NCBI GenBank assembly: GCA_022562275.1 | Contig: JADFPP010000019.1 | Location: 1 to 47,769 of the forward strand | Reading direction: 5' to 3' | DNA from: Bacteroidota bacterium | GTDB taxonomy: Bacteria > Bacteroidota > Ignavibacteria > Ignavibacteriales > Ignavibacteriaceae | Length of the DNA stretch: 47,769 nt | Shown here: one piece after another, positions 12,534 through 47,374 of the stretch | How the letters are laid out: the number at the start of each line of letters is the position of its first letter | How positions within the stretch are numbered: the stretch's first letter is position 1 | The notes under the pieces: model-generated | Seen by the model: only the letters and a program-made list of their open reading frames with translations | The model's database searches: none | What the model was told of the DNA's origin: nothing | Program-made: the position numbers and the translations under genes

Positions 12534-12541
12534 TTGCAATG

Positions 12542-12627
12542 TACCGAAGGCCGGACTCGAACCGGCACCTGGAATAAACCAGACCAGATTTTGAGTCTGG
12601 CGCGTCTACCAATTTCGCCACTTCGGC
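12542..12627 (-). tRNA. tRNA-Leu (anticodon CAA)
   Basis: The reverse strand gives an 86-nt class II tRNA: acceptor GCCGAAG/CTTCGGT, D-arm GGCGAAATTGGTAGACGC, anticodon stem CCAGA/TCTGG around loop CTCAAAA (anticodon CAA, UUG codons), a long variable arm, and T-loop TTCGAGT. The 3' CCA is not encoded. A GIY-YIG ORF ends 1-2 bases from its 5' end. Confidence 0.95.
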
Positions 12628-12628
12628 A
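12618..12628. repeat. direct repeat copy 1 (tRNA-Leu 5' end)
   Basis: CCACTTCGGCA on the + strand covers the first ten bases of tRNA-Leu plus one flanking base. The identical sequence recurs at 12927-12937, so the two bracket the GIY-YIG ORF. Confidence 0.75.
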
Positions 12629-12865
12629 TTATTTGATTTTTTTTAAGAACTCTTTTCCAACACCAGATTTCAAGTATTTTTCTTTGGCTCTCGCTTCAAC
12701 TCTTGACAGAAAATTTTCGAAAAAAATCAGATTAAAAGGAGCGTAAGCTCTGGTTGTCTTTTCATAACCACTGTTGTGTCTATGTAGTCTTTCATTAAGA
12801 TTACTCGTTAAACCAACATAGATATAATTTCGAGTTTTGCTTTTTATAGCATAAACAGTATACAT
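12629..12865 (-). CDS. GIY-YIG endonuclease domain protein
   Basis: A 78-residue protein from the ATG at 12865; an upstream start at 12901 would add 12 residues in repeat-like DNA and is not favoured. It is a bare GIY-YIG nuclease domain: YTVYAIKS takes the place of GIY, YIYVGLTSNLNERLHRHNSG supplies the YIG and the catalytic Arg, and the final helix has EARAKEKYLKSGVGKEFL. Such single-domain ORFs are common in Bacteroidota next to tRNA and rRNA genes and are thought to be mobile or homing-like, without known host function. The stop lies immediately before the tRNA-Leu 5' end, and an 11-bp copy of the tRNA start lies on the other side of the gene. Confidence 0.85.
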   Translation of the reverse strand: MYTVYAIKSKTRNYIYVGLTSNLNERLHRHNSGYEKTTRAYAPFNLIFFENFLSRVEARAKEKYLKSGVGKEFLKKIK

Positions 12866-12926
12866 AATCTTAGTGCGCCTGCCTGCCGGCAAATCTAACA
12901 ATGGAGTTTATCACGCCAAGGCGGGA

Positions 12927-12937
12927 CCACTTCGGCA
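12927..12937. repeat. direct repeat copy 2 (tRNA-Leu 5' end)
   Basis: A second exact CCACTTCGGCA, 309 bp from the first, beyond the start of the GIY-YIG gene. It is followed by AGAAGT-A(n)-ACTTCT (12937-12955), a small hairpin. The pair looks like an insertion or attachment duplication around the cassette. Confidence 0.7.
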
Positions 12938-13021
12938 GAAGTAAAAAAAACTTCTTGTATTGAAAAATTTTCTTATAGAATAAATATAATAATTAAGGCG
13001 CATCAATTTAAAAAACTTATC

Positions 13022-13269: not shown

Positions 13270-13473
13270 ATGAAAAAAAGCAGATACAATAAACAAATCA
13301 AAGATTCATTTTATGATGATATATTTTCATATATGAATCTCGAATCAACGGATTGCGAAGCACTATATGAAAGTGAAATAGAAATGGATCATTTCTTGGA
13401 AGATTATCATATCGACGATCTTGATTTATCGGATCTGGTTGATGCTTACATCGATGATATATCACTTATTTAA
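13270..13473 (+). CDS. small acidic protein of unknown function
   Basis: A 67-residue protein, not recognised. The N-terminus is basic (MKKSRYNKQIK); the rest is strongly acidic, with many Asp and Glu (FYDDIFSYMNLESTDCEALY, then EDYHIDDLDLSDLVDAYIDD), and has no membrane segment. Highly acidic small proteins include DNA mimics and partner inhibitors, but nothing here proves such a role. The ATG at 13270 follows an AGAGG Shine-Dalgarno that is base-paired in the predicted leader hairpin. The next small gene begins 28 bp downstream on the same strand, so the two are probably one unit. Confidence 0.6.
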   Translation: MKKSRYNKQIKDSFYDDIFSYMNLESTDCEALYESEIEMDHFLEDYHIDDLDLSDLVDAYIDDISLI

Positions 13474-47175: not shown

Positions 47176-47276
47176 GGGCCCATAGCTCAGTTGCCTGTCC
47201 GGCGTATCCCGGTAGCGGCAGTAAAGTCTTTCGGGAGAAGACGGAGTTAGAGCAGCTGATCCATAATCAGAGGGTC
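47176..47276 (+). pseudogene. interrupted, 3'-truncated tRNA(CAT) copy
   Basis: The first 18 bases (47176-47193) equal the intact tRNA at 47298. A 53-nt insert follows (47194-47246), then 30 bases resuming the D-arm, anticodon arm (CCATAAT) and variable loop to GGGTC (47276). No T-arm or 3' acceptor follows. The insert is GC-rich and folds by eye (GTCTT/AAGAC and TCCCG/CGGGA arms). Some bases of the anticodon stem have changed. Confidence 0.7.
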
Positions 47277-47297: not shown

Positions 47298-47371
47298 GGG
47301 CCCATAGCTCAGTTGGTTAGAGCATCTGACTCATAATCAGAGGGTCGGTGGTTCGAGTCCATCTGGGCCCA
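47298..47371 (+). tRNA. tRNA with CAT anticodon (elongator Met or Ile2)
   Basis: A 74-nt cloverleaf: acceptor GGGCCCA/TGGGCCC (perfect), D-arm GCTCAGTTGGTTAGAGC, anticodon stem TCTGA/TCAGA with loop CTCATAA (anticodon CAT), and T-loop TTCGAGT. The anticodon alone fits elongator Met or the lysidine-modified Ile2; it is not the initiator type. After the discriminator A come CC and then G, so no full CCA. Confidence 0.95.
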
Positions 47372-47374
47372 CCG

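Follow-up and report, generated by a model that had tools for sequence, protein, structure and literature searches.

The window, the whole 47,769-nucleotide stretch of DNA analysed here, carries an intact tRNA-Leu(CAA) gene immediately downstream of a short ORF for a GIY-YIG protein. Displaced tRNA sequence lies upstream of this ORF, and a second partial tRNA copy is found elsewhere in the window. The features are as follows.

12541..12627, minus strand: intact tRNA-Leu(CAA), found by ARAGORN, the presumed target gene, kept functional downstream of the GIY-YIG ORF
12629..12865, minus strand: GIY-YIG ORF, ATG at 12865, stop at 12629-12631, 78 aa, a single catalytic domain
12871..12936, minus strand: displaced, decayed copy of the tRNA-Leu 5´ part (nt 1 to ~31) with two inserts, aligning to the half copies of loci L018 and L019 and to the scar of genome G004
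12878..12893, minus strand: GC palindrome remnant TTTGCCGGCAGGCAGG (consensus CCTGCCTGCCGGCAGGCAGG), a palindrome found in the D-arm of displaced tRNA-Leu copies of the same clade
12902..12926, minus strand: 25-nt insert (TCCCGCCTTGGCG...) within the displaced copy, also present in the G004 scar
12927..12937, minus strand: exact 11-mer TGCCGAAGTGG, where the displaced copy is still preserved at its start, together with 1 nt of leader
47176..47276, plus strand: partial tRNA-Met copy without an ORF (nt 1-18, a 52-nt insert, nt 19-49), just ahead of the intact tRNA-Met at 47298-47373

The displaced tRNA-Leu copy and the alleles of its locus

Read along the minus strand, the order is leader, TGCCGAAGTGG (12937-12927), 61 bases, ATG, 78 codons, stop, 1 base and tRNA-Leu(CAA), with ORF and tRNA on the same strand and 1 nt between them. 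A sequence-only reading of this DNA had placed the gene stop at the tRNA boundary and an exact 11-mer on both sides of the gene, and both observations hold. The stop lies 1 base from tRNA-Leu, and CCACTTCGGCA at 12618-12628, comprising the tRNA 5´ end and one flanking base, recurs exactly at 12927-12937 (the tRNA itself, 12627-12541, starts with GCCGAAGTGG). With 0.24 matches to the 11-mer expected in the whole window at no more than one mismatch, an exact occurrence beside the GIY-YIG ORF is unlikely by chance. A local alignment of tRNA-Leu with its own flank scored 20, below the best shuffle, where other tRNAs used as controls and shuffled sequences scored 20-22. The 11-mer alone thus fails a stand-alone statistical test and is suggestive but weak evidence, not conclusive.

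Comparison with relatives makes the case conclusive. The stretch 12866-12940 aligns with a half-copy scar in the same-genus genome G004 at a score of 68 (best of 500 shuffles, 21) and with the half copy at L018 at 45, compared with 15.5 for shuffles; the window repeat is therefore a decayed copy of tRNA nt ~1-31 rather than an 11-mer. Its layout is GCCGAAGTGG, 25 nt, TTGTTAGA (which corresponds to TTGGTAGA of the tRNA), the 16-nt palindrome and CGCACTA, followed by the ATG. At the loci of other members of this protein clade, the ORF is preceded by a legible copy of the first 24-40 nt of the local tRNA-Leu, its D-arm usually interrupted by the palindrome CCTGCCTGCCGGCAGGCAGG. A plain 11-bp target duplication is rejected, since the repeats of other family members are mostly 25-140 bp long.

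The same tRNA-Leu(CAA) gene can be followed in the same-genus genomes G001-G004, where it shows 94-99% identity and synteny. A small acidic ORF at 13270-13473 of the window, upstream of tRNA-Leu, has a similar-looking sequence upstream of the tRNA in all four and so serves as a synteny marker. G001, G002 and G003 have one clean tRNA at the locus and no ORF, and in G004, where the ORF is again absent, the intact tRNA directly adjoins a half copy that shares the 25-nt insert. Empty, occupied and ORF-lost alleles thus coexist within one genus. Another same-genus pair provides a comparable case at tRNA-Gly: Tyr-Gly-Thr is uninterrupted in G054 (an empty site), and in G041 the ORF comes after the intact Gly gene and is itself followed by a displaced Gly copy, its anticodon arm replaced by TCCCGACTTGTCGGGA, which keeps the native junction to Thr. 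These single clean tRNAs in substance bear out the empty sites that the sequence-only reading had predicted for close relatives. That reading had proposed a minimal mobile cassette inserting at the 5´ end of a tRNA, and much of this proposal stands, as the insert is ORF-only, lies at a tRNA gene, leaves an intact tRNA and has empty counterparts; what changes is the repeat, a decayed partial tRNA copy in place of an 11-bp target site.

A family of single-domain GIY-YIG proteins at tRNA genes

The 78-aa protein matches Pfam GIY-YIG (PF01541, 7.3e-16), and its AlphaFold model has a pLDDT of 96. It belongs to the GIY-YIG superfamily by its domain, conserved motif and Arg, His and Glu positions; residues Y5, Y16, G18, R26, H30 and E62 are invariant in alignments A1 and A3, the broad alignment A1 being too diverse for a genome scan. 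The closest folds are UPF0213 BH0048 and Slx1, followed by the catalytic domains of I-TevI and UvrC. In fold and size, and as best sequence and fold matches, it resembles the UPF0213 single-domain GIY-YIG proteins (1zg2, 1ywl) and Slx1; no link of UPF0213 to tRNA genes was found in the papers searched. Unlike the well-studied homing endonucleases, it has no separate DNA-binding domain, a feature typical of such enzymes though not universal, and the catalytic domain makes up the whole 78 aa.

When 59 related genomes were searched at the protein level, 52 proved to hold relatives, often in tandem in arrays of up to five. Presence is patchy, with up to 18 copies in a genome and zero in relatives. 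Our survey read ~120 stretches from related genomes together with 80 named loci from a GTDB scan, the latter covering Ignavibacteria, Bacteroidota, Balneola-like bacteria and several Patescibacteria. It yielded 195 ORF clusters, numbers to be read with the caveats that resemblance to the window protein determined which loci were included, that many of these are related, that units in tandem are not independent and that several loci are truncated at the ends of MAG contigs. In 161 of the 195, the stretch held a tRNA or tmRNA gene; the ORF lay within 260 bp of the RNA gene in 154 of these 161 (median gap 34 bp), always on the same strand (154/154). Single-domain GIY-YIG ORFs had been said to sit near tRNA and rRNA genes, and for tRNA this is seen in the 154 clusters. 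For rRNA it is not, as Rfam detected none at the 30 loci searched, which were mostly picked for having no ARAGORN tRNA or tmRNA; 12 of them were searched again at a relaxed threshold. The family also uses tmRNA as its neighbouring RNA gene. Elsewhere in the window's own genome, other GIY-YIG ORFs stand in tandem after tRNA-Asn (three) and after tRNA-Ser(CGA) (two), with one after tmRNA and one after tRNA-Met (L002, L003, L007 and L011, on contigs C7, C99, C40 and C67).

Of the 147 tRNA cases that could be tested, 140 have a partial copy of the same tRNA beyond the ORF as seen from the intact gene, with scores above those of other tRNAs and shuffles, which in substance confirms the expectation that the repeat would recur around other family members. 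Where the ORF precedes the tRNA, the 5´ part is copied (55/56) and the copy begins at nt 1 in 51 of the 55; where it follows the tRNA, the 3´ part is copied (85/91) and the copy reaches the last tRNA nucleotide in 65 of the 85. The side of insertion claimed earlier, the tRNA 5´ end, is therefore right for the first arrangement, whereas the second uses the 3´ part. These 140 loci, together with the G004 scar and the half copies at L018-L020, contradict the notion of an unrelated small ORF beside an accidental 11-mer; the stand-alone alignment score of the window repeat, no better than shuffles, speaks for such a coincidence, to which we give next to no credence. Among the 34 clusters without a recognised RNA gene, about a dozen have tRNA pieces and two have tmRNA; ~20 have no RNA gene or tRNA piece recognisable by ARAGORN or by Rfam run on loci. 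At L053, L057, L059, L060, L078, L084, L092 and L102, neither an RNA gene nor a piece of tRNA can be recognised beside the family member, and some of these loci are in a complete genome. At L045, in genome G006, the nearest intact tRNA-Leu is ~1.6 kb away from two Leu-clade ORFs that have 5´ half copies, and the flank is duplicated at CCGGATGGTGA, common to the end of a neighbouring gene and the tRNA, which suggests a microhomology event.

Integrative elements use tRNA genes as sites and leave tRNA 3´ fragments behind, and a remnant of a prophage or ICE with att sites in tRNA genes would share these features. Such an origin is contradicted by the bare-ORF architecture, in which the ORF is the only gene between the repeats, with no integrase and no cargo, and the duplicated part is the tRNA 5´ part in 55 loci. 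The protein also had no match among 50,697 phage records or 72,556 plasmid records and only four matches in viral contigs, with a tRNA in the fetched stretch for one of the four. We regard this explanation as very improbable.

Isotype and protein lineage go together. On a tree of 212 proteins (75 columns, many forks open), the isotype changes 12 times, against a minimum of 9 and 80 when shuffled, and the Leu lineages of Bacteroidota and Patescibacteria group together. Each protein lineage keeps to a single tRNA isotype across phyla. Selection on the proteins is purifying, with a median dN/dS of 0.10 over 35 close pairs, tandem copies included.

Local duplications, hairpins and copies without an ORF

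Several properties of the repeats bear on how they arise. Identity continues past the tRNA end: on the 5´ side it is 0.55-0.75 over the first five bases, compared with 0.31-0.51 for shuffled pairs, and the 3´ side is similar. Because the repeats run on into leader or trailer, the duplication is a DNA-level event, and duplication through a processed tRNA by reverse transcription is rejected. The displaced copy matches the tRNA of its own locus at least as well as any other tRNA of the same isotype at 65 of 70 Leu and 29 of 32 Ser loci, with 24 different acceptor 7-mers among the Leu loci. The duplicated part was thus made locally, and a foreign tRNA half carried in the cassette is not supported. 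Repeat lengths are mostly ~25-140 bp, with medians of 46 and 73, and extend beyond the tRNA. Where preservation is good, the gap from the left copy to the ATG is 0-5 nt and the right copy starts within ~10 nt of the stop, so that the insert is practically a bare ORF.

A bare ORF bracketed and abutted by direct repeats of ~25-140 bp, made from local sequence, is also what might be seen if the single-domain nuclease acted as a transposase and inserted its ORF with a long target-site duplication from the tRNA end. We think this unlikely, as the repeat length varies widely, the ORF has no terminal repeats of its own, and the strict orientation (154/154) and an isotype that tracks the protein tree are typical of homing, not of transposition.

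The displaced copies have gathered additional sequence. Inserts of at least 8 nt occur in 86 of the 140 copies, are typical in sequence of the isotype clade and contain a perfect stem of at least 5 bp in 69 of 94 cases (10 after shuffling). The GC palindrome CCTGYCTRCCGRCAGGCAGG, 18-20 bp, is found at ~30 places in the window's genome with at most 2 mismatches (L310-L329); the remnant at 12878-12893 is the only such palindrome in the window. The Leu palindrome is dispersed at low copy and intergenic, and also occurs in frame inside at least two long ORFs (for example as ACLPVGRA, L311). It is commoner in genomes with Leu-clade ORFs (median 11 vs 1, p 4e-4, uncorrected for kinship). The hairpins may be short parasites of breaks or may protect displaced copies. 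REP palindromes with RAYT transposases are likewise small, dispersed palindromes of clade-specific sequence next to a nuclease gene; unlike them, the present hairpins accompany an unrelated enzyme, and at the locus the palindrome is confined to the displaced tRNA copy.

Partial tRNA copies also occur without an ORF. A partial self-copy within 420 bp was found for 23 of 65 tRNA genes in two carrier genomes and for 1 of 74 in two non-carrier genomes (Fisher p 3e-8), and 18 of the 23 have no ORF. They could be scars left when ORFs were lost, or nucleases acting in trans could have produced them. The tRNA-Met copy at 47176-47276 is probably a second scar in the same window. Three contigs of G000 (C146, C148 and C117; L143, L126 and L134) hold tandem pseudo-copies of tRNA-Gln, -Val and -Arg and one of tRNA-Glu, without a GIY-YIG ORF, in which hairpins replace the anticodon arm or sit in the T-loop.

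A resident, useful nuclease near tRNAs, for example a domesticated repair enzyme like UPF0213 or Slx1, with the partial copies left by ordinary recombination, would account for the purifying selection and for UPF0213 and Slx1 being the closest folds. It sits poorly with the near absence of partial tRNA copies from ORF-free genomes, with the patchy distribution, including empty and scar alleles among same-genus genomes, and with copy numbers of up to 18 in a genome and zero in relatives, and we consider it quite improbable.

Probable homing into tRNA genes and what the family may offer

We think it probable that the ORF is a free-standing gene of homing-endonuclease type, selfish and resident in tRNA genes of one isotype, whose insertion duplicates part of the target and leaves one tRNA intact. 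As with homing endonucleases, the gene lies at its own inferred target, relatives carry ORF-less alleles and target specificity, read from tree and isotype, tracks protein lineage. In this model, the nuclease would cut a tRNA gene of its isotype, and repair of the break would place the ORF there and recopy part of the local tRNA with some flank on the other side. One complete tRNA would persist, satisfying selection on the tRNA, and a joint transcript of ORF and tRNA could be split by RNase P. Tandem arrays could result from further cutting or from unequal exchange, as reported for phage SegB, while the displaced part would decay and gather hairpin inserts at tRNA loop positions. Against homing, the intact tRNA in a carrier should still hold the target, which leaves self-protection unexplained. 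The 18 of 23 partial copies without an ORF in carrier genomes and the ~20 clusters without an RNA gene or tRNA piece also count against it, as do the lack of a separate DNA-binding domain and the stand-alone test in which the window's own repeat does no better than shuffles.

A broader proposal is that bare single-domain GIY-YIG genes, one lineage per isotype, form a distinct class of chromosomal mobile element that has spread among the tRNA genes of both Bacteroidota and Patescibacteria, each insertion duplicating a part of the tRNA found there. Cutting would also spread clade-specific hairpins and ORF-less pseudo-tRNA arrays, giving an autonomous gene with non-autonomous derivatives. We put this forward tentatively, as possible but short of an even chance.

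Known systems share some of these features. In phage T6, cleavage inside tRNA genes by the GIY-YIG enzyme SegB leads to tandem amplification of segments that hold the tRNA and the SegB gene itself (PMC13096335). The window family resembles SegB of T4 and T6 and other free-standing GIY-YIG homing endonucleases of phage tRNA clusters in having a nuclease gene beside tRNA genes (PMC13096335); SegB is a phage gene for which no isotype preference is reported, whereas the window family is chromosomal, encodes 78 aa, has one clade per isotype and is bracketed by a partial copy of the target tRNA. In the mORFs of fungal mitochondria (Allomyces atp6; Glomus atp6, atp9, cox2 and nad3), an endonuclease ORF lies in a gene whose end has been duplicated, with the native end displaced and one gene intact (PMC3630166). 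The same layout, a displaced native end on one side of the ORF and an intact gene on the other, is found here. In contrast, mORFs occupy protein genes of mitochondria, with GIY-YIG in only one of four Glomus cases, and their replacement end is taken as foreign (PMC3630166), whereas the copy in the window family matches the local tRNA. Group I introns with homing endonucleases in bacterial tRNA genes are likewise selfish DNA that spares the occupied tRNA gene (PMC3984707); unlike them, the present family involves no intron and no splicing, as tRNA-Leu is contiguous and intact, and the tRNA is spared by duplication. No description of a tRNA gene, a GIY-YIG gene and a partial copy in this arrangement was found in the open-access literature searched. 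Judged from that literature, the arrangement bears the marks of a family of selfish genes, so far unnoticed, that enter tRNA genes and yet spare them.

tRNA genes are essential and conserved targets, which introns spare by splicing and integrases by carrying a tRNA end. The family described here appears to represent a third solution, in which the tRNA is spared through part-duplication at the break. Its isotype-specific 78-aa nucleases, with their empty, occupied and scar alleles, provide natural experiments on how one tRNA gene is recognised by a domain that has no DNA-binding module, why carrier genomes are strewn with tRNA fragments and pseudo-tRNAs, and how nuclease breaks give rise to tandem arrays.
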